NCBI GenBank assembly: GCA_017477555.1
Contig: JAFUVK010000180.1
Location: forward strand, 1-48,613
From: Muribaculaceae bacterium
GTDB lineage: Bacteria > Bacteroidota > Bacteroidia > Bacteroidales > Muribaculaceae
Length of the DNA: 48,613 bases
Direction of reading: 5' to 3'
Numbering within the stretch: position 1 is the stretch's first letter; each line of letters starts with the position of its first letter. Shown here piece by piece: positions 6,406-32,947 of this stretch. The notes beneath the pieces were generated by a model. It was not told where the DNA came from, made no database searches, and saw only the letters and a program-made list of their open reading frames with translations. Both the position numbers and the translations under genes were made by a program.

Positions 6406-6659
6406 ATTAGTGCAAGTTGAGCGCAATGATGCTTGCATCAATTGCCGAGACGCAGCCTAATTTATCTAAAATTAGTGCAAGTTGAGCGCAATGATGCTTG
6501 CATCAATTGCCGAGACGCAGCCTAATTTATCTAAAATTAGTGCAAGTTGAGCGCAATGATGCTTGCGTCAATTGCCGAGACGCAGCCTAATTTATCTATA
6601 ATTAGTGCGTGTTGAGCGCAATGATGCTTGCATCAATTGCCGAGACGCAGCCTATCTAA
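6406..6659. repeat. Four tandem copies of a 65-bp hairpin-bearing repeat
   Basis: Copies start at 6406, 6471, 6536 and 6601, exactly 65 bp apart and nearly identical. Each holds a stem TGATG-CTTG-CATCA, flanked by TTGAGCGCAA and GCCGAGACGCAGCC. Copy 3 has one change in the stem that keeps a G-U pair; copy 4 has CGTG for CAAG and a shortened end. A related single copy is at 30956-31020 in the opposite orientation. Confidence 0.9.
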
Positions 6660-6675
6660 AATAAGACTGATTTTT

Positions 6676-7785
6676 ATGGCCGATTCACCCTTATTGCAGC
6701 GTTTGGAGGGACTGGATGCACGGTTCGATGAGATTGGTACGCTCATCACCGACCCCAGCGTGATAGCCGACCAACGCCGCTATGTCAAACTGACCAAAGA
6801 ATACAAGAGCCTGGAGACCTTGCTGCAGGCCGCTAATCACTACCGAAAATTGCTCACCGACATCGAGCAGGCTAAGGAATTGCTGGCCATCGAGAGCGAC
6901 GAGGAACTGCGGGCCATGGCCCGCGAGGAGATTGACCAGAACACCGCCGAACTGCCCAAGATGGAAGAGCACATCAAGCTGCTGCTCATCCCCGAGGATC
7001 CCGAGGACAGCAAGAACGTGGTGCTAGAGATTCGTGGCGGCACGGGAGGCGACGAGGCCGCCCTGTTTGCCGGCGACCTGGCACGAATGTACACCCGTTA
7101 TTGCGAGCGCAAGGGTTGGGGCGTGCAGGTGTCCAGCTACAGCGAGGGTGCCGCAGGCGGCTACAAGGAGATTATCTTCAGCATCACAGGCGACAATGTC
7201 TACGGCACGCTGAAGTATGAGTCGGGCGTGCACCGGGTGCAACGCGTGCCGGTGACCGAAACACAGGGGCGTGTGCACACTTCGGCAGCCAGTGTGGCAG
7301 TGTTGCCTGAGGCCGAGCCCTTCGATGTACACATCAACGAGGGCGAAATACGTTGGGACTACTTCCGCAGCAGTGGCGCTGGCGGACAGAATGTGAACAA
7401 GGTGAACTCGGGTGTGCGCCTGCGTTACATGTGGACCAACCCTGTGACTAACGAGCAGCAAGAAATCCTCATCGAGTGCACCGAGACGCGCGACCAACCC
7501 AAGAACAAGGAGCGCGCACTGGCTCGCTTGCGCACATTTATTTACGACCACGAGCATCAGAAGTATATGGACGATATCGCTAGCCGCCGCAAGACCCTTG
7601 TCTCTACAGGCGACCGTTCGGCCAAAATCCGCACCTATAATTTTCCACAGGGACGCATCACCGACCATCGCATCGGCTACACCATCTACAACCTGCCGGC
7701 ATTTATGGATGGCGACATCCAGGACTGCATCGACCACCTCATTGTGGCCGAGAATGCCGAGAAGCTCAAGGAAGCAGCCCTCTAA
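6676..7785 (+). CDS. prfA: Peptide chain release factor 1
   Basis: A 369-aa class I release factor that ends translation at UAA and UAG. The GGQ motif that enters the peptidyl-transferase centre is at residues 236-238 (SSGAGGQNVNK). The codon-recognition tripeptide is PVT at 192-194 (RVPVTETQGRVHTSAA), the PxT form of RF1, not the SPF of RF2. The start is the ATG before ADSPLLQRLEGLDARF; the longer frame extends into the 65-bp repeats. pyrF follows after 33 bp on the same strand, so the two are probably co-transcribed. Confidence 0.97.
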   Translation: MADSPLLQRLEGLDARFDEIGTLITDPSVIADQRRYVKLTKEYKSLETLLQAANHYRKLLTDIEQAKELLAIESDEELRAMAREEIDQNTAELPKMEEHIKLLLIPEDPEDSKNVVLEIRGGTGGDEAALFAGDLARMYTRYCERKGWGVQVSSYSEGAAGGYKEIIFSITGDNVYGTLKYESGVHRVQRVPVTETQGRVHTSAASVAVLPEAEPFDVHINEGEIRWDYFRSSGAGGQNVNKVNSGVRLRYMWTNPVTNEQQEILIECTETRDQPKNKERALARLRTFIYDHEHQKYMDDIASRRKTLVSTGDRSAKIRTYNFPQGRITDHRIGYTIYNLPAFMDGDIQDCIDHLIVAENAEKLKEAAL

Positions 7786-7818
7786 TAGTTGATAGTTGAT
7801 AATTGATAATTAAATAAT

Positions 7819-8625
7819 ATGACTCGCGACCAACTGTATGCCAATATGCTGCGCAAACGCAGCTTTCTGTGTGTTGGGCTCGACCCCGACCCCAGCAAGA
7901 TGCCTGCCTCGCTAGGCGGCGACTTGCTCTCGTTCAACAAAGCCATCATCGACGCCACCGCCGACTATGCTATCGCCTTCAAACCCAATCTGGCCTTTTA
8001 CGAGGCCCAAGGTCCAGCCGGCTACGAGGCTTTCGAACAAACGGTGCGCTATCTGCGTCAGCACTATCCTGATCAGATGATTATTGCCGACGCCATGCGC
8101 GGCGACCTAGGTAACACTAGCAAAGCCTATGCCCGCAGCTTCTTCGAAACACTTGACGTGGACGCACTGACCGTGGCACCCTATATGGGCGAGGATAGTG
8201 TGACACCCTTTCTGGGCTATGAGGGCAAATGGGTCATTGTGCTGGCTCTGACTAGCAACAAAGGCTCGATGGATTTTCAGATGCTGCGCGACAGCGAGGG
8301 CACACCGCTCTACGAGCATGTGCTGCGCAAAGCCGCACAATGGGGCACTGCCGACAACATGATGTTTGTGGCCGGCGCCACACGTGGCCAGATGCTGCAA
8401 GACGTGCGCCGCATCGTCCCCGACCACTTCCTGCTTGTGCCCGGTGTGGGCGCTCAGGGCGGCTCGCTCGATGAGGTGGCACACTATGCGATGAACGCGC
8501 AATGCGGCATCATCGTCAACTCGTCGCGAGGCATCATCCATGCCAGCAGTGGCGACGACTTTGCCCAGATGGCACGCGCCAAGGCTGCCGCCATGCAGGC
8601 CCAGATGGCACAGTTGCTGGGTTAG
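7819..8625 (+). CDS. pyrF: Orotidine 5'-phosphate decarboxylase, catalytic Lys replaced by Met
   Basis: A 268-aa subfamily-2 OMP decarboxylase, which makes UMP in the last step of de novo pyrimidine synthesis. Family blocks are clear: [10 protein letters not shown] (about 16-25), FKPNLAFYE (54-62), [39 protein letters not shown] and IVNSSRGI. The active-site segment, normally DAKRGDxGNT, reads [10 protein letters not shown]: the lysine of the Asp-x-Lys-x-x-Asp catalytic array is Met93 (codon ATG at 8095-8097). Aspartates 91 and 96 and Lys55 are present. A lysine codon AAG differs by one base. Everything else looks under selection. It is either an error in the read, a recent inactivating change, or a real variant. 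Confidence 0.93.
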
Positions 8626-8688
8626 TTGTTAGTTAGACTTTAGTTTTTGGCCGGGCAACAACTAACACTACTAAAAACTAAAGTCTAA
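8621..8688. terminator. Interleaved inverted repeats between pyrF and the CotH gene
   Basis: A perfect 16-bp inverted repeat (8633-8648 with 8673-8688) with T- and A-rich inner ends lies between convergent genes and can serve as terminator. A second 10-bp repeat (GTTAGTTGTT at 8621-8630 with 8657-8666) is interleaved with it, so the two stems would form a pseudoknot or exclude each other. Confidence 0.6.
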
Positions 8689-8695
8689 CGTCTAG

Positions 8696-10159
8696 TCACT
8701 TCACTGCGCCAAGCATCAGATTGATGACTTGATTGATGTCGGCAATGTCAACATGGCCGTCAGCATTGACATCACATGCTGCTTCTATAACCTTTTCATC
8801 ATCACGGTTGAGCATACAGTTGATGACAGTATTCACATCAACTACATCGACACTGCCATCGATGTTGGCATCGCCAGGTAAGTGGATTTTGGCAACAAGC
8901 TTGTTAAGAAATGGCAGCCGCCGACCATACCATTCGGCACGTTGCGACAGGATTGACGAGTACACAACATGTGAGTTCCACCGTAGGTTGTTATAGGTGG
9001 TCGAGTAGTACAGTCCCCAAAACTGACTGGACTCTTTGAAATCATTAAGACGATTACACATCTCGGTTTCGAGCGCCCTGCATACTGTGAGCCACAACCT
9101 GATATAATGCAATTTGAATGCAGGATTGCAGTTGTTAAACAAGCGCGTGAAATGCTCGGTATGGCACCTTGACCAATTGGTTATCGTGGTCTCGTTCGAA
9201 TCAAAATCCCAAAGGCAAGGCATCACCATCAGCGACTCGGGCCGGCGATCGTAACGCACGTAATATCGATTAGTGCCTCCCGAATCCCAAGATCCCAGAA
9301 TGTCTTGAGCCAGGCACCATAATGCAAAAGAGTTCAAGTCGATGTACTGCTCATAGTTGTCGCATGTCAACGACTGCTCAAATCTGGCAAGATAATCGGT
9401 GAAGTACGCAACATCCGCATCACTCAACCGCTCGGAATCAGGATACTTGAATGTGAATCCATAATGCGAGTCGAGCAGCGACTTGATATAGAAGTCCTCG
9501 TTCCACCAGTAAGCATCGCCCTCGATCAGCATCCCCTGGCCTGAGACATTGATTCGGCAATTGGTGTTACGTTTCACCGACTCAATGAGCATGTACACCC
9601 CTCGATAATTGTTGTTAATCACCAGATTAACATACATGAAATGAGGTGTCCACGGCATACCTAAGACTTTACTCAGAGTCAGCCCTGAGAGAACATTCAG
9701 CTCCTCATCGGTGATGAGCAACCAGTCGCGGTCCATGCACAAGACATCGTTGCGCAGCAGCAAATCGTCCGATGTTGCGAGTTTGATTTTAAATGGTTTC
9801 TTATCTTGATAAGCACTGGTGTTGCCTCTTATCTTAATAGTCATCCCGTGACTGTGCTCATCATATTCACCGCTATCGTAGACTGGCGAATCGGAGTTCT
9901 GATAGATGCGCAATCGTCCAGGCACTTTTGTGGCCTGCGTGATCGACATCCCCCATGCGCCAGGAGGAGCCGTGACATATTGGCAGGCTGGCTCCTCGCC
10001 GTTGACAGTGACGACATCAACCAACGGCAACCCGGTGCCTATAAGTAGTGACTGTGACACTGTCACGCCATCGCGAATCACGATTTGCGCATCAGCCATC
10101 TGGCAATGCACCATCAAGAGTGCCACGACAAGCAAATAATATGGTATCTTTCTTTTCAT
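8696..10159 (-). CDS. Secreted CotH-family protein with C-terminal dockerin-like repeats
   Basis: A 487-aa secreted protein. A signal peptide (MKRKIPYYLLVVALLMVHC, cleavage near ADAQ) precedes a CotH kinase-like domain covering about residues 85-400: GMTIKIRGNTSAYQDKKPFK, then RGVYMLIESVKR, GDAYWWNEDFYI and CLWDFDSNET. CotH proteins in spores are atypical protein kinases; in Bacteroidales they are common surface or secreted proteins of unknown substrate. The C-terminus (last 60 residues) holds two calcium-binding dockerin type I-like repeats, GDANIDGSVDVVDVNTVINC and CDVNADGHVDIADINQVINL. The ATG is chosen over a TTG seven codons upstream. A TATCTTTG element lies 19 bp before the start. Confidence 0.88.
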   Translation of the reverse strand: MKRKIPYYLLVVALLMVHCQMADAQIVIRDGVTVSQSLLIGTGLPLVDVVTVNGEEPACQYVTAPPGAWGMSITQATKVPGRLRIYQNSDSPVYDSGEYDEHSHGMTIKIRGNTSAYQDKKPFKIKLATSDDLLLRNDVLCMDRDWLLITDEELNVLSGLTLSKVLGMPWTPHFMYVNLVINNNYRGVYMLIESVKRNTNCRINVSGQGMLIEGDAYWWNEDFYIKSLLDSHYGFTFKYPDSERLSDADVAYFTDYLARFEQSLTCDNYEQYIDLNSFALWCLAQDILGSWDSGGTNRYYVRYDRRPESLMVMPCLWDFDSNETTITNWSRCHTEHFTRLFNNCNPAFKLHYIRLWLTVCRALETEMCNRLNDFKESSQFWGLYYSTTYNNLRWNSHVVYSSILSQRAEWYGRRLPFLNKLVAKIHLPGDANIDGSVDVVDVNTVINCMLNRDDEKVIEAACDVNADGHVDIADINQVINLMLGAVK

Positions 10160-10177
10160 TGTCAGATTATTTGGTGA

Positions 10178-10185
10178 CAAAGATA
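10178..10185 (-). promoter_or_regulatory. Predicted -7 element for the CotH-dockerin gene
   Basis: TATCTTTG on the minus strand matches TAnnTTTG. A -33 element is weak (TCTG about 20 bp upstream). The match is close enough to the ATG to give a very short leader. Confidence 0.4.
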
Positions 10186-10202
10186 CAAATTAATTATAAC
10201 AT

Positions 10203-10227
10203 TCAGAATAATATTAATATATTCTGA
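10203..10227. promoter_or_regulatory. AT-rich inverted repeat between divergent genes
   Basis: TCAGAATA and TATTCTGA flank a 9-nt AT spacer in the 85-bp gap between the divergent CotH and isomerase-like genes. Its central position suggests an operator, but no regulator is encoded nearby. Confidence 0.3.
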
Positions 10228-10244
10228 GCAAACAAATTAAAAAG

Positions 10245-11471
10245 ATGGATTCGAACACAATCTCAATTTACACACTGACCTCGGCATTGCACGACGAGCA
10301 AGCGGTGTCTTGCGCCACCCAACAATTTCTAAGCTCGTTGCTGATCGAGTATGCCTACAAGGGCGAGGACTACAGCGACTATGGCAAAGCCACACTCAAC
10401 CTGATTTTTGTGCGCACCGGGGGCACAGAAGGCATCTTCAAGACACTTCTGCCACAACTGCAGCGTCAATCTACCCACCCCATCTTCTTGCTCACTTCGG
10501 GCCAGAGCAACTCGCTGGCTGCCGCGATGGAGATTCTCTCCTACCTGCAGCAGCAAGGCATCAATGGAGAGATACTACACGGTACACCCCGGTATATCCG
10601 CCACCGCATCCACGGCTTGCTGCAAGTGCATCTGGCCTTGCGACGACTTTCCGGCATGCGGCTAGGGGTCATCGGCCAGCCCTCCGACTGGCTCATCTCC
10701 AGTCAAGCCGATGCCAGGGTGGTGAGGCAGAAATTGGGCATCGAGCTTGTTGACATCGACATTCGGGAGGTACTTGACAACTTCGCCGTCCAGCCTGCCA
10801 CCATCAGCGCCTCAGCATTGTCGCCCAGCACTCCACCCGAGCCCAAAGTCGCAGCCGCCCTACCCGATGCTGAAAGGTTACATGCCGCTCTGCGAGGCAT
10901 TGTCGAGCGCCATCATCTGTCTGGCATCACCATCCGTTGTTTCGACCTGCTCGCCACAATCCACAATACAGGATGCCTGGCCTTGGCCAGACTGAATGCC
11001 GATGGTGTGGTGGCAGGATGCGAGGGCGACGTACCGGCTGCCATTTCGATGATGATTGCCCAAGCCCTGCTGGGAGTAACCGGTTTTCAATGCAATCCAT
11101 CGGCCATCGACCCCGATAGCGGCATCATCACACTGGCCCACTGCACCATCCCGTTCAACCTTGTGACACGCTACGAGCTAGACACACACTATGAGTCGGG
11201 CATCGGCGTGGGCATCCGCGGCTATATGGCACCAGGACCGGTAACCATCTTCAAGGTCAGCGGCGACTTGACTCGTCATTTTGTAGCACAAGGCCAACTG
11301 ATTGACAAACCTTGCAGCCCCGACTTGTGCCGCACACAGTTGACGATTCGCCTGGACGATACCAAGCAGACGCGCTATTTTCTGACCCACCCCATCGGCA
11401 ACCATCACATCGTCGTGCCTGGTGAACATGCCCAGCTGATGTGCGAACTTCTTACAGCAATCTCCGATTAA
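10245..11471 (+). CDS. L-fucose/L-arabinose-isomerase-fold protein (COG2407-like)
   Basis: A 408-aa protein resembling the fucose/arabinose isomerase fold. The N-terminal half has Rossmann-like strands and a conserved NLIFVRTGGTEGIF. The C-terminal half contains GCLALARLNADG, then ACEGDVPAAISMM-type sequence (here GCEGDVPAAISMMIAQALLG) and HCTIPFNLV. This matches the metal/sugar site region of COG2407 sugar isomerases, in which Glu and Asp of CEGD are conserved. It ends with a beta domain (MAPGPVTIFKVSGD). The substrate is unknown, and no sugar kinase or transporter is adjacent, so a simple fucose pathway is not supported. It is a single gene divergent from the CotH gene. Confidence 0.7.
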   Translation: MDSNTISIYTLTSALHDEQAVSCATQQFLSSLLIEYAYKGEDYSDYGKATLNLIFVRTGGTEGIFKTLLPQLQRQSTHPIFLLTSGQSNSLAAAMEILSYLQQQGINGEILHGTPRYIRHRIHGLLQVHLALRRLSGMRLGVIGQPSDWLISSQADARVVRQKLGIELVDIDIREVLDNFAVQPATISASALSPSTPPEPKVAAALPDAERLHAALRGIVERHHLSGITIRCFDLLATIHNTGCLALARLNADGVVAGCEGDVPAAISMMIAQALLGVTGFQCNPSAIDPDSGIITLAHCTIPFNLVTRYELDTHYESGIGVGIRGYMAPGPVTIFKVSGDLTRHFVAQGQLIDKPCSPDLCRTQLTIRLDDTKQTRYFLTHPIGNHHIVVPGEHAQLMCELLTAISD

Positions 11472-11495
11472 TTAATGCATTGTGCATTATGCATT

Positions 11496-11526
11496 AAAAA
11501 ATGTCCCCACCACGAGTGGTAGGGAC
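11496..11526 (-). terminator. Terminator of the PPi-phosphofructokinase gene
   Basis: A hairpin GTCCC-x-ACCAC / GTGGT-x-GGGAC with a 2-nt loop and one mismatch lies about 77 bp beyond the minus-strand stop codon. On the minus strand it is followed by ATTTTTT. Confidence 0.7.
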
Positions 11527-11602
11527 GCAAGCTGTGAAAAAGGTTTATAAAAAGTAACACTGTTCAGTGTCCAGCCCTCGCAGGCCGGGCACTGCGCAGC
11601 TT

Positions 11603-15810: not shown

Positions 15811-15899
15811 TGGATAAATCTTGCTGCGCCTCAGCAAAAAAGATGAGAAACTTCGCTTTTCATCTTGTTTTGCGTTCGGCTTGCACAAATTTTTGGCAA
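15811..15899 (+). repeat. Promoter-proximal hairpin repeat, copy upstream of TPR gene
   Basis: Conserved left block GCTGCGCCTCAGCAAA, a central stem (AAGATGA with TCATCTT), then the conserved right block TTTTGCGTTCGGCTTGCAC followed by AAATTTTTG. The right block points toward the plus-strand TPR gene, whose -7 element lies about 50 bp further. Confidence 0.75.
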
Positions 15900-24240: not shown

Positions 24241-24270
24241 TCTCGATAATAATTTCAGGAAACAAATATT

Positions 24271-25518
24271 CTATTCACTGTCAACCAAGAGCGAAAGCAG
24301 CAACAGCAGAGCATCGTTGGTGGCACGGGATATGACGCGGTCGCGGTGACCAGGTATGTGCCGGCACTGCGTGAGCATCCTCTCGCCACACCGGGCAGCC
24401 ATCCACACGGTGCCAACAGGTGTCTCGGGCGTACCTCCTCCCGGGCCGGCCACGCCGGTTGTCGACACAGCGCAGTCGGTGCCGAGCAGTCGGCAAACGC
24501 CTGTGGCCATCTGCTCGGCCACCGTTTGGCTCACCACACCATAGCGATCGATGTCGCTTGCCGACACCCCGAGCTGCCGTTGCTTAACCTGCCGGTGATA
24601 AGACACCACAGCACCAAGGAAATATTCACTGCTTCCGGCCACACGTGTCACCTCGTGGGCAATGTTTCCGCCCGTACAACTCTCGGCAGTGGCTAGAGTC
24701 AGGCCTCGCTGACGCAGCAGTCGCCCCACTATGGCAGCCAGCGGCAAATCCTCGTCGGCCACGATGTGCTTGCCCAGCCGATCATGCAGTTCGGCGGCCA
24801 AGCGGTCCATCTCGGCTTTGAGCCACTGAGCATCGGTCGACTGCCCGGTGAGACGCAAATGGATGATTCCGGGCTGCGGCAGGTAAGCCAGATGGATGCC
24901 TGGCGGCAGCGAGCGTTCCCACGAGTCAAGTTGCATGGCCAGGGCGCTCTCAATAATGCCCACCACCATCATGTGCCTGAACTCGATGTCGACGTGGTCG
25001 CTGAAGTGCGCCACAAGCTGCGGAATCACCTCACGCACCAGCATCGTCTCGGCCTCATAGGGCACACCGGGCATACTCACCAGCACCTTCCCGTCGCGCT
25101 CAAACCACATGAGCGGTGCAGTGCCGCACTGGTTCTGTATCACCCGACACGACGACGGCACCATGGCTTGAGCACGGGTGTAGTCGTTGAGCGGCAGATG
25201 CCTGCCCGCCACAATCTGCTCCACATTGCGAGCCGTGGGCGGGTCATAGACCAGCTCACCACCGAAGTATCGGCACAACGTGGGCTTGGTGATATCGTCT
25301 TTAGTTGGTCCCAGACCACCTGTCATGAGCACCACATCGCTGTGGGCAAAGGCATCATCGATGGCGTCAAAGATGGCTCCACTGTCGTCGGCCACAGCAC
25401 GAATGGTAGTGGCCTGCCAGCCATAGGGGGTCAGTTGCCGGGCAATAAAGCCTGAATTGGTATCTTGCACTTGGCCTATGAGAATCTCATCGCCAACGAC
25501 TAGAATTGAATAATCCAT
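24271..25518 (-). CDS. cinA: CinA-family nicotinamide-nucleotide amidohydrolase/pyrophosphatase
   Basis: A 415-aa protein with two CinA domains. The N-terminal MoCF/COG1058 part (about 1-170) has VVGDEILIGQVQDTNSGFIA and MTGGLGPTKDDITKPTL (ADP-ribose/NMN pyrophosphatase site). The C-terminal amidase part (about 250-412) has LATAESCTGGNIAHEVTRVAGSSEYFLGAVVSY and STTGVAGPGGGTPETPVGTVW, matching NMN deamidase with its catalytic serine in ESCTGG. It is thought to recycle NMN for NAD. The correct start is MDYSILVVGDEI; the apparent N-terminal LTP repeats upstream come from a 9-bp DNA repeat in the leader. tsaD is 126 bp upstream. Confidence 0.95.
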   Translation of the reverse strand: MDYSILVVGDEILIGQVQDTNSGFIARQLTPYGWQATTIRAVADDSGAIFDAIDDAFAHSDVVLMTGGLGPTKDDITKPTLCRYFGGELVYDPPTARNVEQIVAGRHLPLNDYTRAQAMVPSSCRVIQNQCGTAPLMWFERDGKVLVSMPGVPYEAETMLVREVIPQLVAHFSDHVDIEFRHMMVVGIIESALAMQLDSWERSLPPGIHLAYLPQPGIIHLRLTGQSTDAQWLKAEMDRLAAELHDRLGKHIVADEDLPLAAIVGRLLRQRGLTLATAESCTGGNIAHEVTRVAGSSEYFLGAVVSYHRQVKQRQLGVSASDIDRYGVVSQTVAEQMATGVCRLLGTDCAVSTTGVAGPGGGTPETPVGTVWMAARCGERMLTQCRHIPGHRDRVISRATNDALLLLLSLLVDSE

Positions 25519-25530
25519 TACACTTTTAGT

Positions 25531-25590
25531 AGTTAAGGGAGTTAAGGGAGTTAAGGGAGTTAAAGGAGTTAAAGGAGTCAAAGGAGTTAA
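25531..25590. repeat. 9-bp direct repeat array in the cinA leader
   Basis: About 6.5 copies of AGTTAAGGG / AGTTAAAGG, ending 13 bp upstream of the cinA ATG. The word is shared with the 18-bp array before the DUF4293 gene. Confidence 0.9.
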
Positions 25591-25644
25591 TACGAATCTC
25601 TTGCCGATGACAACTTTCAACTATAAACTTTCAACTATAAACTT

Positions 25645-26658: not shown

Positions 26659-26697
26659 CTTTCTTTTAGTTTTAAGTTTAAAGTTTATAATTTAAGG

Positions 26698-26784
26698 AAC
26701 TATATACGAGTTGCCCCTTGATGGGTAGGGACGGCACCCCTGTGCCGTCGGCCAACGGGGCTGCCGACTACAGATATTTCCCTG
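26698..26784. mobile_element. MITE-like element, short copy between tsaD and the DUF486 gene
   Basis: The left end (GGAACTATATAC, then GTTGCCCCTTGATG) matches the left terminal repeat of the 32103 element. An internal hairpin GACGGCAC-CCCT-GTGCCGTC and GGGGCTGCCGAC follow. The right end ACAGATATTTCCC is a shortened terminal repeat. It carries no gene. Confidence 0.6.
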
Positions 26785-26805
26785 TTGCCTGTTCGTCGTT
26801 CGCTG

Positions 26806-27186
26806 TCAATCCACACGCAGAAAGGCGAAGTAGACCGCGGCAATGAGCAGGAAAAAAGCGACAAAGTGGTTCCAGTGCAGCTGTTCGCTCTTAAAAAAGA
26901 TGGTGACAAACACGGTGAAAACCGTAAGCGATATCACCTCTTGAATGACCTTGAGTTGCAACAGGCTGAACGGCCCGCCATTGTCGGCAAAGCCGATGCG
27001 GTTGGCAGGAACCATAAACATATACTCAAACAGCGCGATTCCCCAAGAGAAGAGAATCACAACAATCAACGGCCAGTGCGTGCTCACACCCACTTGCTGC
27101 AGCTTAAGGTGTCCGTACCAAGCAAAGGTCATCACGATGTTGCTCACCAGCAACAGTGCCAATGTGGCTATACCAGTCCAGTTCAA
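26806..27186 (-). CDS. DMT-superfamily DUF486 membrane protein
   Basis: A 126-aa protein with four transmembrane helices (about 6-24, 36-58, 76-95, 103-123). The motif SNIVMTFAWYGHLK and the following RIGFADNGGPFSLLQLKVIQEVI are characteristic of DUF486 (PF04342), a half-size member of the drug/metabolite transporter superfamily. The substrate is unknown. The start codon is TTG: an in-frame TGA lies two codons upstream, and the N-terminal helix before SNIVMTF is expected in the family, so an internal ATG start would remove it. Confidence 0.88.
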   Translation of the reverse strand: MNWTGIATLALLLVSNIVMTFAWYGHLKLQQVGVSTHWPLIVVILFSWGIALFEYMFMVPANRIGFADNGGPFSLLQLKVIQEVISLTVFTVFVTIFFKSEQLHWNHFVAFFLLIAAVYFAFLRVD

Positions 27187-27261
27187 TCTTAATCAAGTTA
27201 GGTGGGTCCTATAAACCGACCCATCACATTATATTTATATTATTAATGAATCCACCGCCGG

Positions 27262-28395
27262 TTAGTTCTTCGATTTCTTCGCGCACATCGATCGTCTGCG
27301 TGCCAGCTCGGCATAACCAGCCCTATAAGTCTCTATGTTCTTGCGCGTGAGCACCTGCACATAGCCCGTGCCCTCCTTGTTGTAGAGTTTTGACAGATTG
27401 ATGTAGTGCTGCCCGTTGCCGCGAGTGATGCTGAACACCTCGGCCTCGCGCTTGTTGACCAGGTCGCACTGCACCGAGTGCCGGCGCGATGTGGTGCCAC
27501 GGAGCACTTCGGGCACGCCCCCTTCACCAGTCCACACGGCAAACACCTCGGCGCAGGGGGGGTAGCCCAGAGCCGCCCACATCGTGGTCAGGCTCGGGTC
27601 CTCGCCCGGCAGCACACCCTCGATGACGATGGTGGCAGTGCTGATGCGGCGAGGAATGAAGTCCTGGTCCACTAGCCACTCCAGCCCACTGTCGTTGTAG
27701 TTGCGACGCATGCGGCTGTGATAGAACGTGCGCGAGAGCACCTCGGTAAACGTTGCCGGCGTTATGTTGCACTGCACCACGTAGGGGCGAAGCAGCTCAC
27801 GCTCATTGTCGTGCCTGATATATCCCATGCCCTGACCCTCACGGCCACTCACCGAGTAGTTGGTGCGCGTCAGTATGCCCGTTGGCTCATCGGCCAGGTC
27901 ATATTTGGTCCACTTGTAGTTGCCCGTCTCGAAGTAGGCGCCATGGCCCTGAGCATCGATAACCCCGAAGTTGGCCTCCACACCCAGAGGCTTAGGCAGC
28001 TGTTCGAGCACGCGCTCAAAGTCGTCGACCGTGGTGCAGCGCTCCAGCGCATAGCGCATCACCACACCCTCGCGGTCCATGTCGCGCTCAGGCACATTGT
28101 CGTCGTTCAGGTTATAGCTGGCAGTGTTCATGATCGCAAAGCCCCGCTCATTCATGCCCATCCACGCCGCCGTGTCGCGAGAGTCGCGCGCATCGAACAG
28201 CGCCACAAACTCCAGCAGACCGTCGTGCGCCTTGATGCGCTCAATGCGATTGTTCTGGTCGTTGGTGTCTCGGTTTTTCCACAGCAGCGGTCGGCCGTTG
28301 GCCGTAAGCCGTCCGCTCACTATCGCCGACGTGCAGCAGTCAGCCGCCAGGGCCACCACCGCCGCCAGCAAGATCAAGAGAGAGAAACGTTTCAT
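27262..28395 (-). CDS. Exported C45/choloylglycine-type Ntn hydrolase
   Basis: A 377-aa exported protein of the linear-amide hydrolase/acyltransferase (C45-like) group. A signal peptide (MKRFSLLILLAAVVALAA) ends just before Cys20-Cys21-Thr22; Cys21 would be the N-terminal nucleophile of the Ntn-hydrolase fold (CTSAIVSGRLTANGRPLLWKNRD). Other family blocks are GMNERGFAIMNTASYNL and FGVIDAQGHGAYFETGNYKW. Members cleave or transfer acyl groups on amides; the substrate cannot be inferred here. The ATG is taken one codon inside a GTG-initiated frame. Confidence 0.85.
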   Translation of the reverse strand: MKRFSLLILLAAVVALAADCCTSAIVSGRLTANGRPLLWKNRDTNDQNNRIERIKAHDGLLEFVALFDARDSRDTAAWMGMNERGFAIMNTASYNLNDDNVPERDMDREGVVMRYALERCTTVDDFERVLEQLPKPLGVEANFGVIDAQGHGAYFETGNYKWTKYDLADEPTGILTRTNYSVSGREGQGMGYIRHDNERELLRPYVVQCNITPATFTEVLSRTFYHSRMRRNYNDSGLEWLVDQDFIPRRISTATIVIEGVLPGEDPSLTTMWAALGYPPCAEVFAVWTGEGGVPEVLRGTTSRRHSVQCDLVNKREAEVFSITRGNGQHYINLSKLYNKEGTGYVQVLTRKNIETYRAGYAELARRRSMCAKKSKN

Positions 28396-28567
28396 CACAT
28401 AACTTATAATTAAATCATTATTTACTTACCCCTTCTGCAACCCTGTAGCGGCAGGACAGCGAGACCCTAAGGCCTGCACACGACCCTTGCGCCGCACGTG
28501 GCCACGCCGGGCCGCAACCCACCGGTGCCGCCGTGTTGCAGCCTACTACCCTACTATAGCAGCAAAT

Positions 28568-28894
28568 TTATCGATCGTAGTGCGGCATCTCGTCGGGCAG
28601 CACAATCGAGATTTCAACCATCCCTTTCACCTGACCATCGACCTTCCAGGGCGACTGAAATATCATCTTGCGCACCCCATTCTTGCTGATGGTGTAACAG
28701 TTAGTCGTGTCGCTCTCCATCATGTGGCGAATCATCTGACGCGAGCGCTCCTGGTGGCAGGGAAACAGATTCTGCCCCACCATCGACGCGCCATCCTTGC
28801 TGAAAGTCAGGCGCGAACGCTCGTTCATATAGATAATCGTACCCTCGTTGTCACACACCGTGATGGCACAGTGCAGTTGTTCAGCCCAGTCCAT
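28568..28894 (-). CDS. Stand-alone PAS-domain protein
   Basis: A 108-aa protein consisting of a single PAS fold: LHCAITVCDNEGTIIYMNERSRLTF, then GQNLFPCHQERSRQMIRHMM and a final pair of strands YTISKNGVRKMIFQSPW and GMVEISIVLPDEMP. There is no output domain. Similar short PAS proteins of Bacteroidales are presumed ligand sensors or adaptors. Histidine/cysteine-rich FPCHQER might bind a cofactor, but this is a guess. It is monocistronic and divergent from the thioesterase gene. Confidence 0.8.
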   Translation of the reverse strand: MDWAEQLHCAITVCDNEGTIIYMNERSRLTFSKDGASMVGQNLFPCHQERSRQMIRHMMESDTTNCYTISKNGVRKMIFQSPWKVDGQVKGMVEISIVLPDEMPHYDR

Positions 28895-29097
28895 TTGTTA
28901 TCAAGATTTAATCATTAAACATCTACAAGTTCAAAACAATCCTGCAAAAATAATGATTTTTTGCCACATGAGCCCTATCGACCAGCGAAATTTAGACGAA
29001 TTCACACTTTTTCCGCCACAACCCACCACAGCCGCGGCCACCCAACTCGCTCGCTGGCAGCGACGGCTACCCTGTGCCGTCCCTACAGCCTTGACAC

Positions 29098-29236
29098 AGC
29101 TACAAGAGCCATTTACCGCCCTGGAGGGGCGGCCGAGGGCGGTGTCTGTCAAACGGTTCGGCACGGGGGCTTCCGCCCCCGCCTGTAATCGGATAGCCCT
29201 TTCGAGGCGCCAAGGGGACAACGGGTATATAGTTCA
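29098..29236. mobile_element. MITE-like element, copy upstream of the dprA unit
   Basis: It shares with the 32103 element a run of GC hairpins (GGGGGCTTCCGCCCCC, then CCTGTAATCGGATAGCCC) and the right terminal repeat (CAAGGGGACAACGGGTATATAG). The left terminal repeat is missing and is replaced by a second hairpin block (CCGCCCTGGAGGGGCGG). Confidence 0.55.
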
Positions 29237-29241
29237 ATTTG

Positions 29242-29386
29242 TGGATAAAATGCTCACGCTCGGCAAAACTCGAGCGAGCTCGTTTTTGCTCTCGCTTAAT
29301 CGCATTTTTGGCTGCGTCTTGGCAAAAAAAAGGAGAAACTTCGTTTTTCATCGTGTTTTGCGCTCGGCTTGCACAATTTTTTTGTA
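29242..29386 (+). repeat. Promoter-proximal hairpin repeat, double copy before thioesterase
   Basis: Two degenerate units in a row. The second has left block GGCTGCGTCTTGGCAAA, stem GAGAAACTTCGTTTTTC and right block TTTTGCGCTCGGCTTGCAC, ending in a TAATTTTG element that overlaps its edge. It points toward the plus-strand thioesterase gene. Confidence 0.75.
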
Positions 29387-29415
29387 ATTTTGGGGCTTCA
29401 ATCACAACAACGCTG

Positions 29416-29823
29416 ATGCAACACTATATTTTCACACTGGCGATAGCGGTGCGCGACTATGAGCTCGACAGCGAGGGCATCGTCAACAACGCCCACTATC
29501 TGCACTATCTTGAGCACACGCGCCATGCCTGGGTCAAAAGCCGCGGCTGCTCGTTTGCCCACATGGCGGCCCAGGGCATTGTCCCCGTGGTCAGCCGCAT
29601 CGAGATTGACTACAAGTCGCCGCTACGCAGCGGCGACATCATCGACAGCCGCCTCTGGGTGGAGCGCCGCGGAGTGCGCTGCCTCTTCCATCAAGACATC
29701 TACAACCAGGCCACCGGGCAGCTGGTGGTGCGTGCCGTGGTGAGCATCGTGACGCTGGTTGGCGGCCAGCTGTCGCGCAGCGAGGAGCTGTGGCAACAAC
29801 TTGGGTTGGGCAATGAGCAATGA
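29416..29823 (+). CDS. Acyl-CoA thioesterase, 4-hydroxybenzoyl-CoA thioesterase/YbgC-like
   Basis: A 135-aa hot-dog-fold thioesterase. The active-site signature is present: RDYELDSEGIVNNAHYLHYL with Asp18 as catalytic residue, followed by EHTRHAW. SRIEIDYKSPLRSGD and a C-terminal beta strand VVSIVTLVGG complete the fold. The acyl substrate is unknown; such proteins often act on fatty or aromatic acyl-CoA. Its last 11 nt overlap the dprA start, so the two are translated from one transcript. Confidence 0.92.
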   Translation: MQHYIFTLAIAVRDYELDSEGIVNNAHYLHYLEHTRHAWVKSRGCSFAHMAAQGIVPVVSRIEIDYKSPLRSGDIIDSRLWVERRGVRCLFHQDIYNQATGQLVVRAVVSIVTLVGGQLSRSEELWQQLGLGNEQ

Positions 29824-30925
29824 CCTGCTGAAATATCGCATCGCCTTTGCCTCAATACGCGGCATGGGAGTGAAGCTGGCACGACAACTGCTGGAGGTTG
29901 CCGGCAACGAGCGCGCCTTCTTCGACATGAGCGAGCAAGAATTGCGGCAGCTCACCGGGGGCCACAGCAAGGTCTACACCCATTTCTACCGACAGCGGCA
30001 ACTCGAGCGAGCCGATCGCGAGCTGGACTTCATCGGGCAGAAGCGCATCGCCTGCACCTACTTCACCGACGACTCCTATCCGCGGCGCCTGCTCGAGGCC
30101 GACGATGCTCCCTGCATGCTCTACAGCACTGGGAGCTGCGACCTGAACAGCCGCCATGTGGTGAGCATGGTGGGCACACGCCACGCCACACAGTATGGCG
30201 TGAGCTTCTGCGACGCGTTTGTCCGCGACCTGGCAGCCGCCCTTCCCGACACGGTGGTGGTTAGTGGCCTGGCCTTTGGCATCGACATCGCATCACATCG
30301 CGCTTGCCTGAAGCACGGGTTGAGCACAGTGGCAGTGATGGCCCGCGGGCTGAACACCATCTACCCGGCCATGCACCGCAACGACGCCGCACAAATTGTG
30401 CGCAATCGTGGCATGGTGGTGACCGACTATCTGAGTAGCGACGAGCTCCATCGTGGCAACTTTCTGGCCCGCAACCGCATCATTGCCGCACTGAGCGACT
30501 GCACAATCATCGTTGAGAGCGCCGACCATGGCGGGTCGCTTGTGACGGCCTCGCTGGCTCAGAGCTACAACCGCGATGTCATGGCGGTGCCCGGTCGGGT
30601 GGGCGATGAGTTCTCACGAGGCTGCAACCGCATCATCCGCACCAACCTGGCAATGTCCATCACCGGGGCCGACGACATGATCCAGGCCATGGGCTGGGAC
30701 GACCGGCACAATCTGCAACAAGCGACACAGCTCGAGGTGTTTCCCCAGCTCAACGACGATGAGCAAGCCATTGTGGATGTGTTGCGGCAGCAAGGCGATG
30801 TTCACATCAACACCCTGGCCAATGAGCTGCAAGTACCCATCTATCGACTGATGAGCACACTGGTGGAGCTTGACTGCCGCGGCATCATCCTCACCAAGCC
30901 CGGCCCGATCTACTGCATGCGTTGA
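29813..30925 (+). CDS. dprA: DNA processing protein DprA
   Basis: A 370-aa protein that loads RecA on incoming single-stranded DNA during transformation. An N-terminal helical SAM-like region (LKYRIAFASIRGMGVKLARQ) is followed by the Rossmann domain: VSMVGTRHATQYG, VVSGLAFGIDIASHRACL, TVAVMARGLNTIYPAMHR, then GNFLARNRIIAALSDCTIIVESADHGGSLVTASLA and AVPGRVGDEFSRGCNRII. A C-terminal winged-helix part (VDVLRQQGDVHINTLANELQ) ends the protein. Many Bacteroidota encode DprA without known competence. Confidence 0.97.
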   Translation: MSNDLLKYRIAFASIRGMGVKLARQLLEVAGNERAFFDMSEQELRQLTGGHSKVYTHFYRQRQLERADRELDFIGQKRIACTYFTDDSYPRRLLEADDAPCMLYSTGSCDLNSRHVVSMVGTRHATQYGVSFCDAFVRDLAAALPDTVVVSGLAFGIDIASHRACLKHGLSTVAVMARGLNTIYPAMHRNDAAQIVRNRGMVVTDYLSSDELHRGNFLARNRIIAALSDCTIIVESADHGGSLVTASLAQSYNRDVMAVPGRVGDEFSRGCNRIIRTNLAMSITGADDMIQAMGWDDRHNLQQATQLEVFPQLNDDEQAIVDVLRQQGDVHINTLANELQVPIYRLMSTLVELDCRGIILTKPGPIYCMR

Positions 30926-30955
30926 CCAGGATAACTGCCGGCCAGCTTGATGACT

Positions 30956-31126
30956 TAAATTAGATAAATTAGGCTGCTACTCGGCAATTGATGCAAGCAT
31001 CATTGCACTCAACTTGCACTATGTTGAGGGCTAGCGCCCTCGAAATTAGGCGGCGTCTCGGAAATAAAAATCAAAAACTTTGTTTTTAATTTTGTATTTC
31101 GCTCAACTTGCACTAATTTTTGATAA
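30956..31126 (+). repeat. Promoter-proximal hairpin repeat, two units before the nucleoside phosphorylase
   Basis: Unit 1 (30956-31020) is nearly the reverse complement of the 65-bp unit near prfA. Unit 2 (31045-31126) keeps the flanks (CGGCGTCTCGGAAA and TTTCGCTCAACTTGCAC) but replaces the stem with AAAATCAAAAACTTTG and its partner. A small GAGGGC-TA-GCGCCCTC hairpin lies between them. The gap of 288 bp holds nothing else except the promoter. Confidence 0.8.
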
Positions 31127-31149
31127 ATTTGAGAAAATCGGGCCAAATG

Positions 31150-31180
31150 TTGCAAAAGTGAGAATTATTGAGTAATTTTG
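31150..31180 (+). promoter_or_regulatory. Predicted promoter of the nucleoside phosphorylase gene
   Basis: TTG at 31150-31152 and TAATTTTG at 31173-31180 are 20 bp apart. A second TAATTTTG follows immediately. The leader would be about 25 nt. Confidence 0.55.
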
Positions 31181-31213
31181 TAATTTTGTTTCACCGACAA
31201 AACTTATAAGTCT

Positions 31214-32098
31214 ATGGAAAAGAAATATATCCCCGACAGTGAACTGATTATCAATGACGACGGATCGGCCTTTCACATCCATGTGAAGCCCGAGCAGTTG
31301 TGTGACAATATCATTGTGTGTGGCGATCCCGGCCGCGTGACAATGATAGCCAACTATTTTGACACCCGGGAGTTTGAGGTGTCGAGCCGCGAGTTTCACA
31401 CTATCGGAGGCACGTTTAAGGGCAAGCCGGTGATGGCTCTGTCGCACGGCATCGGTGGTGACAACATCGACATAGTGATGACCGAGCTCGACGCACTGGC
31501 CAACGTCGACTTTAAGACCCGTCGGCCCAAAGACGTACACCGCACGCTCAACATTGTGCGCATCGGCACATCGGGTGGCCTGCAGACTTATGTCCCCGTG
31601 GGCACGCCAGTGATAGCCGCCAAGGCGCTGGGGTTTGACGGTGTGCTCAACTACTATGCCGACCGTAACCGCGTGAGCGACCTGGAGTTTGAAAAGGCTT
31701 TCTGCGAGTTTGTGCAATGGAACCCCCTGTTTGCCAAGCCCTATGTGGTGGATGCCGACCCATGGCTGATGGAGCGCATCGGGCGCGATGACATGGTGCG
31801 CGGCTACACCATCAGCGCGGTGGGGTTCTATGGGCCGCAGGGTCGAGAGGTGCGCGCCCGTCTGGCCGAGCCAGAGCTGAACCACCGCATCGAGGCGTTT
31901 GAATACGACGGTGGGCGCATCACCAACTATGAGATGGAGAGTGCGGCGCTACAGGGCCTAGCCCGGATACTGGGACACCGCGCAATAACCGTGTGCTCGA
32001 TTATAGCCAACCGCGTGGCCACCAACGCCAACACCAACTACAAAGGTGCGGTGAGCGACCTTGTTGGCACTGTGCTGGAGCGTTTGCTCAGCGATTAA
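31214..32098 (+). CDS. Nucleoside phosphorylase (uridine phosphorylase-like)
   Basis: A 294-aa NP-I superfamily phosphorylase that splits nucleosides to base and ribose-1-phosphate for salvage. Motifs: VCGDPGRVTMIA (phosphate-binding, about 36-47), SHGIGGDNIDIVMTEL, NIVRIGTSGGLQ, and ITNYEMESAALQGLARILGH, in which MES contacts the ribose. It resembles uridine phosphorylase, but substrate specificity is not certain from sequence. It is monocistronic; a MITE-like element begins within its stop region. Confidence 0.92.
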   Translation: MEKKYIPDSELIINDDGSAFHIHVKPEQLCDNIIVCGDPGRVTMIANYFDTREFEVSSREFHTIGGTFKGKPVMALSHGIGGDNIDIVMTELDALANVDFKTRRPKDVHRTLNIVRIGTSGGLQTYVPVGTPVIAAKALGFDGVLNYYADRNRVSDLEFEKAFCEFVQWNPLFAKPYVVDADPWLMERIGRDDMVRGYTISAVGFYGPQGREVRARLAEPELNHRIEAFEYDGGRITNYEMESAALQGLARILGHRAITVCSIIANRVATNANTNYKGAVSDLVGTVLERLLSD

Positions 32099-32287
32099 GT
32101 TAAGGAACTATATACGTGTTGTCCCTTGTGGTTAAGTAGCAGTGTTCCTTGATGTGTCTCTTGATGTAAAGAAGCACGGGCCCCGATGGGGCCGCCGACC
32201 ATAGGCGGGGGCGGAAGCCCCCGTCTATAATCGAATAGCCCTTTCAGGGCACCAAGCGCACAACAGATATATAATTTCCTTAAGTTA
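32095..32287. mobile_element. Full MITE-like element with candidate 8-bp target duplication
   Basis: Element body 32103-32279, flanked on both sides by TTAAGTTA (32095-32102 and 32280-32287). Imperfect terminal inverted repeats: AGGAACTATATAC then TGTTGTCCCTTG at the left, CAAGCGCACAACA then ATATATAATTTCC at the right. The core holds several GC hairpins, including GGGGGC-GGAA-GCCCCC and GCCCT-TTC-AGGGC. There is no reading frame for a transposase. The left duplication includes the stop codon of the nucleoside phosphorylase. Confidence 0.65.
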
Positions 32288-32338
32288 TGCACAATTCATA
32301 ATGCATAATTTGTAACTGCCTGTCCAATCGGCCCTACA

Positions 32339-32394
32339 ACTCTACCACCTCACTACCCTACTTCCTAAAAAGTAATGTAGTGAGGTGGTAGAGT
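32339..32394. repeat. 18-bp perfect inverted repeat
   Basis: Arms 32339-32356 and 32377-32394 (starting ACTCTACCACC) are fully complementary; the 20-nt loop has a further TACTT/AAGTA stem. No T-run follows, so a terminator role is doubtful. Confidence 0.75.
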
Positions 32395-32616
32395 AGTAAA
32401 GCCGTTATATGATTGCCGCGCTTCGCAATGTTGGGTCGAGAAACAATGGCCTTTGGCCACCGCGCGCAGCCACTATAATGTATCGCCTACTACTCTACTT
32501 CCCTACTACTTTACTTCCCCCAAAAGTAACGTCTTAACTGCATTTAACTACTTGACTACTTAACTACTAAAAAAGCAACTACTTTACCCTCAAAAAGTGT
32601 TGATTTAGGCATAGTT

Positions 32617-32640
32617 AAGGCTGCCTTGCGGGGCAGCCTT
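32617..32640 (-). terminator. Terminator of the 55-aa gene
   Basis: AAGGCTGCC / GGCAGCCTT, 9 bp with a 6-nt loop, 30 bp beyond the minus-strand stop codon of the small gene. Confidence 0.6.
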
Positions 32641-32669
32641 GTCAGTGGGTGAGTGTTGGAGAAGTGAGG

Positions 32670-32837
32670 TCAGTTGGCTATAAACGCGCCAAGTCCCGCC
32701 GGCATCATGCCGCTGAAGGCGTAAGCCCGAGCAAACTGCTTGATGAGCTCTACGGTTGCTTTCTTGGGTTTGATGACCATCACATCCCGTTCACTACCTC
32801 TCGTTGGTTTTGAAATTGAGGTAGAGGTTTTGTTCAT
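32670..32837 (-). CDS. Small 55-aa conserved-looking protein
   Basis: A 55-codon frame with ATG start: MNKTSTSISKPTRGSERDVM, then VIKPKKATVELIKQFARAYA and FSGMMPAGLGAFIAN, then TGA. A disordered polar N-terminus leads into a basic amphipathic helix (KKATVELIKQFARAY). I recall short Bacteroidota proteins with a similar KxxTxxxIxQFARxY core and a C-terminal AFIxN, but cannot name a family. Support for it being a gene: a terminator follows, an AT-rich leader and a promoter-proximal repeat edge precede it, and synonymous third positions are varied while the helix is amphipathic. Function unknown. Confidence 0.65.
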   Translation of the reverse strand: MNKTSTSISKPTRGSERDVMVIKPKKATVELIKQFARAYAFSGMMPAGLGAFIAN

Positions 32838-32921
32838 AGGCAGATGTGTTTGTTAAATCAATACAATTTTATAACGAGGCAATGCCACTATTATTATATG
32901 TAGTGTAACTAATTTGACCGA

Positions 32922-32947
32922 ATAATTTGTGCAAGCCGAATGAAATG
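32922..32947 (-). repeat. Right-end fragment of the promoter-proximal repeat
   Basis: Read on the minus strand, TTTCATTCGGCTTGCAC then AAATTATT matches the conserved right block of the family. It points toward the 55-aa gene and overlaps the -33 element of the cdsA promoter on the other strand. Confidence 0.55.

Follow-up and report, generated by a model that had tools for sequence, protein, structure and literature searches.

A repeated bulged hairpin of Bacteroidales, probably a MITE-like mobile element

Results and Discussion

The repeats present in a 48,613-nt stretch of a Muribaculaceae genome (the window, meaning the whole stretch of DNA analysed) are best read, with moderate confidence, as copies of a non-autonomous, MITE-like mobile hairpin that inserts 3' of TTT in a fixed orientation. 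As is characteristic of MITEs, the element is short (about 60-90 nt), non-coding, bounded by inverted-repeat termini and present in many copies, and its insertion is precise, filled and empty sites having been paired for 9 of 50 queries and for all four window loci tested in G541, a genome of the same genus. Literature searches by sequence strings and by topic found no description of this repeat family. The original prediction of a structured, oriented, promoter-proximal and mobile repeat belonging to no named family is supported, with the orientation and promoter bias confined to one subfamily, subfamily I.

Copies in the window and their counterparts in related genomes

A covariance model (R1) identifies eight full copies in the window, and counts of the two conserved blocks agree. 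For the left block, with 3 mismatches or fewer, there are 9 matches where 0.59 are expected, and for the right block there are 12 where 2.57 are expected, neither count being reached in any of 100 shuffled sequences; 8 of the 9 left-block matches fall inside copies and 8 of the 12 right-block matches fall within copies or the fragment described below. Together, the model matches and block counts confirm the copy positions originally proposed. None of the four loci tested carries the element in G541, a genome roughly 70-85% identical in matched stretches, so that its junctions are approximate.

Four tandem copies of subfamily I, with a 65-bp period and arm CTAAT/ATTAG, occupy 6401..6660 on the minus strand (6401-6465, 6466-6530, 6531-6595 and 6596-6660; R1 scores 67.8, 67.1, 66.4 and 49.3 bits). 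This array is placed between prfA and its inferred promoter, antisense to prfA, whose start lies near the opposite end; it aims at a minus-strand gene 170 to 221 bp off, depending on the choice of start. The inferred prfA -7 box, TACCTTTG (6381..6388, plus strand), and a divergent box of the same sequence (6361-6368, minus strand) are both kept at the corresponding G541 locus, L351, which has no copy. A single plus-strand copy with divergent genes on either side (15814..15895, 66.6 bits) is missing from G541 L332, where the junction AAATTTTTGG is found once.

At 29302..29383 (plus strand, 58.9 bits) lies a single main-type copy, immediately preceded by a type-B hairpin with arms AAAATGC..GCATTTT (29244..29307, plus strand; its left pattern is found at 29244 and its right one at 29288). 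Of the copy proposed at 29242-29386, the part from 29302 therefore stands as a main-type copy, while the earlier part is this related second hairpin type. The -7 box TAATTTTG, exactly 10 nt past the right block (29385..29392, plus strand), occurs with its T tract, element-free, in G541 and in G538, the copy itself being missing from G541 L331 and G538 L342. The remaining full copies form a plus-strand pair, at 30964..31028 (40.8 bits) and 31041..31122 (66.0 bits), joined by a hairpin-bearing linker; the equivalent interval in G541 L331 measures 144 nt, about half the length, and is without a copy. A box at +10, TAAATTTG (31124..31131, plus strand), is unlikely to be the promoter conserved for the 31214 gene, judging from the G541 sequence, which has TACTTTTG near its gene instead.

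The window also contains a minus-strand fragment, the right block alone with 3 mismatches (32929..32943), located by block search and without an R1 match. It faces away from the gene at 32977, contradicting the claim that every right block points to the 5' end of a gene. The TAnnTTTG element said to lie just beyond or overlapping the right block is strictly present at 29302 and 31041, and absent at 15814, 30964 and the four-copy array.

Structure and covariation of the stem

Every copy is built from an outer stem, a pair of conserved blocks whose bulges are fixed, and an inner hairpin that varies, the typical unit of the own genome being RG-ATAA-(arm A', 5 nt)-GCTGCGYCTCRGCAA-(variable hairpin)-TTGCGYTCRRCTTGCA-(arm A, 5 nt)-TTT. 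Most ATAA-headed copies have ATAA-A' and A-TTT as their ends, and 20 of 35 tandem junctions read TTT-NN-ATAA, as matched by a script pattern. The claim that stems vary yet remain self-complementary is borne out by compensatory changes: 86.4% of stem cells are paired compared with 72.4% on shuffling, the covariation score is 0.384 compared with 0.138, a value equalled by none of 500 shuffles, and the outer stem averages 5.25 bp compared with 1.79 for shuffled partners.

Compensatory changes of such strength might mark a structured RNA, either a 5' UTR element or a small RNA, perhaps antisense, and some copies do lie downstream of a TAnnTTTG box. At outer stem positions 1-6 of 101 named copies there are 32 A.C mismatches compared with 8 G.T (19 and 7 among 63 distinct outer stems), and A.C corresponds to a G.U wobble on the opposite strand, an excess that leads us to rate the RNA explanation slightly higher. 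It is nevertheless very improbable: the A.C mismatches are common to related copies, distinct inner hairpins favour neither mismatch (G.T 6, A.C 9 among 678 pairs), one mid-stem pair has the opposite wobble (U.G in 11 of 68), and most of the element is upstream of the start site wherever the right arm constitutes the -7 box. Rfam models, at gathering scores, gave no match to the element in the window or in 18 loci.

The imperfect hairpin, conserved bulges of fixed polarity, variable tip and head-to-tail arrays also recall attC-like recombination sites, in which case a tyrosine recombinase would act on the folded single strand and the copies would be gene-less cassettes. However, the boxes of attC-type sites, GTTRRRY/RYYYAAC, were not noticed when the alignment was inspected by eye, the arms are variable, and no integrase is found among representatives of the 20 largest clusters of neighbouring proteins. 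This is a most improbable explanation.

Empty sites and the insertion target

Queries made by joining the flanks of filled sites gave junction-spanning matches in 13 of 50 cases, of which four proved to be array ends or element sequence and were dropped, leaving element-free relatives for 9. In these 9 pairs the element is mostly positioned exactly 3' of TTT, for example GGGGTTT-element-CGCTATCG compared with GGGGTTTCGCTATCG, or GGTCTTT-element-CG[AC]ACAAA compared with GGTCTTTCG[AC]ACAAA. Variation exists within these pairs: ATT stands at one empty site, variants with TTTT and TTA match one of the filled targets, and the right flank has changed in two pairs. More broadly, TTT is found 5 to 3 nt ahead of ATAA in 38 of 50 ATAA-headed arrays. 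Absence of the element can leave no scar, and the empty sites could be losses of it; letters resembling the arm are for the most part already present at three of the four sites found empty in G541. Longer direct repeats (9 or more matching letters in 10, counting the arm) flank 14 of 101 own arrays, compared with 2% for shuffled partners, and 20 of 95 named copies, compared with 6%, so that the boundary drawn here is provisional, as is any duplication.

On the preferred reading of a MITE-like mobile hairpin, an enzyme acting in trans would recognise the conserved bulged hairpin, probably in single-stranded or extruded DNA. The terminal TTT of each copy would be the target for the next, tandem arrays arising because copies end in TTT. 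Promoters would be targeted because the -7 box (TAnnTTTG), or sometimes a preceding T tract, offers a sense-strand TTT, and insertions there may be tolerated because arm plus TTTG (e.g. CTATC+TTTG) remakes the -7 box or because a native downstream box remains intact. Subfamilies whose arms differ have no such bias towards promoters.

A more elaborate scheme makes arm A' the programmable guide of a Y1-free, single-hairpin DNA transposition, pairing with the target box, often a promoter -7 box, and with the element's right end; arm changes would then retarget the family, and insertion would rebuild the promoter at a set helical spacing. The GGTCTTT target above is a repeated one, occupied by copies with two different arms (CAAGA and CAAAT), which weakens guidance by the arm as the main reading, and we consider the scheme, pairing included, unlikely.

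Orientation and promoter boxes

Subfamilies I, II and III were separated by plain text rules applied to the right arm, gene starts were taken from a codon-scored gene caller, and the box counts in 63 subfamily I arrays used only the right-most copy of each array. In subfamily I, 50 of 60 arrays face the 5' end of a gene (p about 2e-7), a figure that includes roughly ten arrays whose arms (GAGATT, TTTGTTT or the like) placed them in this subfamily and which mostly counter the bias. The corresponding figures of 9 of 25 for subfamily II and 7 of 16 for subfamily III reveal no bias, so that the predicted orientation towards gene starts holds for the first subfamily and fails for the others.

Of the 63 subfamily I arrays, 16 have TAnnTTTG exactly 0 nt past the right block and 19 have it at +10, where chance would give about 0.02 per position; one or other position is occupied in 35 of 107 own-genome arrays, about a third. 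An arm followed by TTTG can recreate the box at 0, and the fixed +10 spacing is partly explained by insertion. Among 58 promoter contexts away from copies, a TTT starts 4-8 nt ahead of the box in 17 (control spans, 5 and 7), and TTT at exactly 6 nt before the box, the place required for +10, is found in about 2%; a T-tract origin of the +10 spacing is thus weakly borne out. This weak result lowers our rating of the MITE-like reading and raises that of a regulatory one and, since the +10 spacing is just partly explained, part of the copies may later have been put to regulatory use.

A selected cis-regulatory element, whether promoter, insulator or factor platform, would have its hairpin sequester or present the -7 box, for instance through cruciform extrusion. 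The two box positions, one helical turn apart while native T tracts peak elsewhere, are in its favour, as are the facing of gene starts in subfamily I and the pairing of the outer stem with the box, variable letters included. Yet all four window sites are empty in the sister species, which retains both the promoter at 29416 and prfA, the stems of the unoriented subfamilies II and III are equally paired, and some genera of the family have no match in any sampled genome. We regard such an element as a less likely possibility. The empty sister sites, clade-specific copy number, unoriented subfamilies and lack of an Rfam match at gathering scores tell against the earlier suggestion of a selected factor platform or small-RNA module, though part of the copies may have a regulatory use.

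Search for a partner enzyme

A Y1 partner was sought in the own genome, across the order using the own-genome protein, in 11 element-bearing genomes, and by contrasting 15 high-copy with 15 zero-copy genomes. PF01797 (Y1), at E 0.01, had no match in 8 of the 11 element-bearing genomes, six of these having 13 to 26 scored copies. The high-copy and zero-copy groups did not differ, each having matches over the cut-off in 8 of its 15 genomes, with no Y1 match whatever in the high-copy genomes G458, G463, G479, G517 and G533; several element-rich genomes without a Y1 transposase are near-complete. Among 64 Y1-gene loci scanned, copies are nearby only at L131, L365 and L369. Distinct loci from element-bearing genomes number 21, with copies at two (L131 and L369), and the arrangement at L369 resembles an IS placed within an array.

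These results bear on REP/REPIN sequences moved by a RAYT (TnpA-REP, Y1), such as the Bacteroidetes subclass 2.6 with its 'atypical secondary structures'. The bulged hairpins, the many intergenic copies and a CGTC run in some left blocks are all reminiscent of REPs, and one own-genome copy starts at a Y1 gene's stop codon while G499 has a Y1 gene within an element array. That G499 gene, however, is bounded by inverted repeats of its own, RAYT genes are not flanked by the element in the manner expected, and the hairpin bears no terminal GTAG or CGTC tag, CGYC being found only inside the left block. Near-complete, element-rich genomes without Y1 and the equal division of the high- and zero-copy genomes led us to reject a Y1/RAYT partner as a present requirement; the need for one is largely refuted, a past, lost enzyme being possible, and the REP/RAYT explanation is improbable.

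To assess recurrent neighbours, 982 proteins were clustered and a single representative from each of the 20 largest clusters was compared with Pfam. No transposase, recombinase or integrase was found among these representatives. They have ordinary cellular functions, among them an ABC transporter, Mg chelatase, sigma factor, peptidase and glycosyl transferase, and one is without a family. Some of the 16 loci in the top cluster overlap one another in the same genomes.

Comparison with known elements

Elements of the IS200/IS605 type insert 3' of a short T-rich target without net loss and have hairpin ends of fixed polarity. The present element resembles them in all three respects, but has no required TnpA, is non-coding and has one hairpin rather than two.

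The Porphyromonas gingivalis MITEs BrickBuilt and MITEPgRS are likewise short, non-coding, repeated and intergenic, and come from the Bacteroidales (PMC4596501). Some BrickBuilt copies had promoter activity, internal repeats of 23 nt or 41 nt occur in BrickBuilt and PgRS, and the TIRs (GAGACC..) match IS5-family elements (PMC4596501). Compared with these MITEs, the present element has other ends, a hairpin core and an order-wide spread, and no partner IS was found. REP/REPIN sequences with RAYTs, including subclass 2.6 in Bacteroidetes, are similarly bulged, intergenic and clustered (PMC6006769); the present element lacks a terminal tag and a required Y1 partner, and differs in its 60-90 nt length, conserved mid-stem blocks, variable tip and arms, and position 3' of TTT. 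CGTC-tagged REPs are also reported from Bacteroidetes and have 8-9 bp stems, 4-5 nt loops, a terminal CGTC and no known dedicated transposase (PMC3733652), whereas here CGTC is internal to a conserved block and often replaced by CGCC or CACT.

Distribution and significance

The own genome, assembled in 199 contigs, has at least 137 copies. Of 100 loci matching a strict motif, 99 belong to records whose titles name Bacteroidales groups, and the element is present in 43 of 99 genomes of the family, with from 0 to at least 50 copies per genome; copy number is clade-specific. Cultured relatives that carry copies include Palleniella muris and Prevotella sp. khp7, as their records are titled. With one copy (L040) as query, 7 of 50,697 phage records matched, all of them unannotated faecal contigs, and no plasmid carrier; the strict pattern matched 2 viral contigs.

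Many Bacteroidales of gut and rumen carry the family. Its arrays probably break assemblies, since they sit at several contig ends. It offers a ready test case of a mobile element landing at promoters without destroying them, one that could rewire expression between strains, and it points to an enzyme that handles hairpin DNA.

Structure and base pairing of the element

Copies from many genomes follow a common plan, comprising an outer stem of 6-7 bp, a left block GCTGCGYCTCRGCAA, a variable inner hairpin and a right block TTGCGYTCRRCTTGCAC, with bulges whose polarity is fixed across the aligned copies. The 68 sequences aligned were 56 picked by strict block patterns and 12 copies from the own genome; conservation of the block letters is therefore partly a consequence of this choice, while the arms and inner hairpin are not so affected. 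Scored on the 23 pairs of the stated structure, the alignment was paired in 86.4% of cells, compared with 72.4% after shuffling, and 15 pairs were altered on both sides. The covariation score of 0.384 (0.138 when shuffled) was reached by none of 500 shuffles and was no more than 0.149 once the partner was slid by 1-3 columns. The original observation that stems vary yet stay self-complementary is borne out by compensatory changes. At the R:Y pair, 100 distinct copies have G-C (50), A-T (46) or A-C (4). Outer stems averaged 5.25 bp in 101 copies, against 1.79 (maximum 2.32) for shuffled partners, and inner hairpins (n=172) showed longer pairing than hairpins with swapped halves, at 5.59 compared with 4.39 (maximum 4.76).

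Mismatches in the inner hairpin are G.T in 6 cases and A.C in 9; in the outer stem A.C outnumbers G.T by 32 to 8 (19 and 7 distinct stems, respectively). Read from the other strand, A.C becomes G.U. The excess may come from shared ancestry or, with low probability, from an antisense RNA; the mismatches as a whole do not single out RNA.

Copy number and taxonomic distribution

With up to three mismatches, the left block occurs 9 times in the window (0.59 expected) and the right block 12 times (2.57 expected), one and four of these, respectively, lying outside copies; none of 100 shuffles had as many of either. At up to two mismatches, the left block was found 57 times in the own genome (3.15 Mb in 199 contigs, 90% complete), a few of these being non-elements, compared with once for a reversed control. 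In the same genome the covariance model R1 gave at least 137 matches at E ≤0.1, from 150 scored of 2,099 candidates. Run on 86 own-genome sources, it gave 142 matches at E ≤0.05, forming 107 arrays (80 single, 21 double, 4 triple and 2 quadruple). Arrays sit at contig ends or close to them at L274, L276, L287 and L304 (own contigs C100, C105, C161 and C184) and, in the same-genus species G541, at L359 and L360; copy numbers are therefore probably underestimated, and arrays may break the assembly.

The strict two-block pattern was present in 100 stretches among genome contigs, several sharing a genome. All but one were in records titled as Bacteroidales groups: Muribaculaceae, Prevotella, Prevotellaceae, Alistipes, Rikenella, Rikenellaceae, Paludibacteraceae, Bacteroidaceae, Porphyromonadaceae, Tannerella, Palleniella and Bacteroidales without a finer name. 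One copy falls outside the order, at L121:1227-1300; its record bears the title Fibrobacter sp., and either a binning error or a genuine outlier could be the cause. Of 295 genomes sampled from the class at least 7 were positive: five belong to the order, counting the own genome, and two from outside the order have a single match apiece. Positive genomes numbered at least 15 of 149 in the order sample and at least 43 of 99 in the family. These are lower bounds from searches with stricter filters and a capped number of candidates scored. Within the family a few genera had high counts (g1, g303, g305 and g308), and several other genera had no copies among the genomes sampled. Element-like matches of 75-85% were also seen in MT839029.1, MT838739.1 and five more phage records, all unannotated faecal 'Bacteriophage sp.' contigs of 5-23 kb, which could be prophage, phage or bacterial carry-over.

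Filled and empty sites

Four window loci are empty of the element in G541, which does carry copies elsewhere in its genome. The sequence upstream of 29416 is ATATTTTTGTAATTTTG in G541 and the element followed by CAATTTTTTTGTAATTTTG in the window; between 14977 and 16064 G541 has AAATTTTTGGCAAAGTTACTG once, and the window copy there has AAATTTTGG to its left and AAATTTTTGGCAAAATTACTG to its right. The G541 intervals upstream of 31214 and of prfA are short and element-free, and nine other species of the genus have no copies at the 31214 site either.

Own-genome copies were divided by right arm into subfamilies II (AAGATTT), III (CCATTGG) and I (others). The two flanks of each of 50 ATAA-headed own arrays were joined and compared with all retrieved sequence, from the own genome and others, and 13 arrays had a match across the junction. 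Four of these matches proved to be the array's own end or element sequence and were dropped; the remaining 9 arrays have element-free relatives of their site, mostly within other repeats. The clearest pairs have GGGGTTT before the element and CGCTATCG after it, or GGTCTTT before and CG[AC]ACAAA after. The GGTCTTT target makes up 4 of the 9 pairs. Different instances of it are occupied by copies with different arms, which means that each copy brings its arm with it. As exceptions, one of the nine empty sites has ATT for TTT and two have an altered right flank; relatives of the GGTCTTT site include TTTT and TTA variants. TTT stands at the insertion spot in 38 of the 50 arrays (I, 21/28; II, 17/22). 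Tandem junctions fit the script pattern TTT-NN-ATAA in 20 of 35 cases, and several of the other 15 contain a hairpin linker. A longer direct repeat including the arm accompanies 14/101 own arrays and 20/95 named copies; some of these appear to be what is left of an earlier tandem neighbour. These direct repeats are the least settled point here.

Classification and candidate mover

No Rfam family matched the element, a literature search with the block strings found no paper on it, and topic searches, in literature that excludes most subscription journals, gave no title or abstract opening that fits it. Among described elements, the P. gingivalis MITEs (PMC4596501) come nearest; the likeness is one of kind, IS5-type ends being a feature of those MITEs. 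We file the element as a MITE-like hairpin family, provisionally as regards duplication length and a partner IS; the features that place it there are its size, its many copies, its inverted ends and the precision of its insertion.

Subclass 2.6 TnpA genes of Bacteroidetes are described as bordered by atypical structures that recur elsewhere (PMC6006769), which made Y1 transposases the first suspect. The own genome has two Y1 genes. One, of YIINQREHH type (L131:258-884, own contig C163), lies between inverted repeats (TGCCTCGAAGAGGAACTTTA), and an element copy begins at its stop codon; in genome G499 a Y1 gene with its own inverted repeats sits inside an element array. Six genomes (G226, G321, G359, G379, G398 and G199) gave no Y1 match at E 0.01 despite 13-26 scored copies. 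Within the family, such genes were above cut-off in 8/15 high-copy and equally 8/15 zero-copy genomes. A Y1 enzyme was largely rejected as a present requirement for movement. Among neighbouring proteins, the 20 largest clusters, judged by their representatives, are ordinary cellular proteins.

Neighbouring and nested repeats

A second intergenic family in the window (TGTCCCTTGATGCAAAG..GGGGCCGCC..AGCCCTTTCAGGGCACCAAGCG..ATATATA) is seen, by sequence likeness, at 29175-29246, 32148-32288, 36458-36584 and 45108-45404, in pieces 61-84% alike, one directly ahead of the hairpin at 29244. That hairpin (29244-29307) is of type B (GATAAAATGCTCACGCTCGGC..GCTCTCGCTTAATCGCATTTTT), a divergent relative of the element also present at other own-genome loci; a main-type copy directly follows 13 of the 17 distinct examples. 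Low-complexity runs of AAGTAGTTAAGGGAGTTAA type occupy 6234-6309, 25506-25590 and 32526-32580, and a similar phrase bears an element elsewhere in the genome (L252). Subfamily III copies (L256, L279, L291 and others) are nested in a larger repeat with outer arms CCCCACCCC..GGGGAGGGG.

Position relative to promoters and genes

TAnnTTTG is the -7 box deduced for B. fragilis, with TTTG near -33 (PMC7366714); TTT forms part of this box, a probable reason why promoters are hit. Divergent, back-to-back TACCTTTG boxes, kept in G541, occur at 6361-6388, between the 5794-6231 gene and prfA. Boxes were counted over a 70-nt stretch from the right-most copy of each array. Of the 63 subfamily I arrays, 16 carry a box at offset 0 and 19 carry one at +10, where chance would give about 0.02 at any one position; a further 8 boxes fall elsewhere in the stretch. 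The 27 arrays of subfamily II have 2 boxes between them and the 17 of subfamily III have none. Among 102 named copies the box is at 0 in 39 and at +10 in 2.

Insertion of a CTATC-ended element before TTTG would create TATCTTTG, accounting for the boxes at offset 0. For the boxes at +10, a native T tract ahead of the box was proposed. In the 58 promoter contexts remaining after removal of those within 45 nt of a copy, TTT started 4-8 nt ahead of the box in 17, compared with 5 and 7 for two other spans of five positions; at exactly 6 nt it was found in about 2% of the 58, compared with 54% of 41 contexts near copies. The T tract is present in some promoters, yet its position alone does not explain the sharp +10 peak; selection for a spacing that works would be consistent with the peak, as would a phased contact with a protein. 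Insertion beside an existing, predicted promoter is directly seen at 29416, where box and T tract are present without the element in G541 and in genome G538.

Every copy had been proposed to point toward the 5' end of a gene. With genes called by a purpose-written, uncurated codon-scored script, and omitting arrays within called genes or without a neighbour on the stretch (3, 2 and 1 for I, II and III), the right neighbour's 5' end faces the array in 50/60 cases for subfamily I (p ~2e-7), where a bias of this kind exists, and in 9/25 and 7/16 for II and III, where it is absent (I against II+III, Fisher p ~6e-6). The gene-start bias is real but limited to the subfamily with promoter-like ends.
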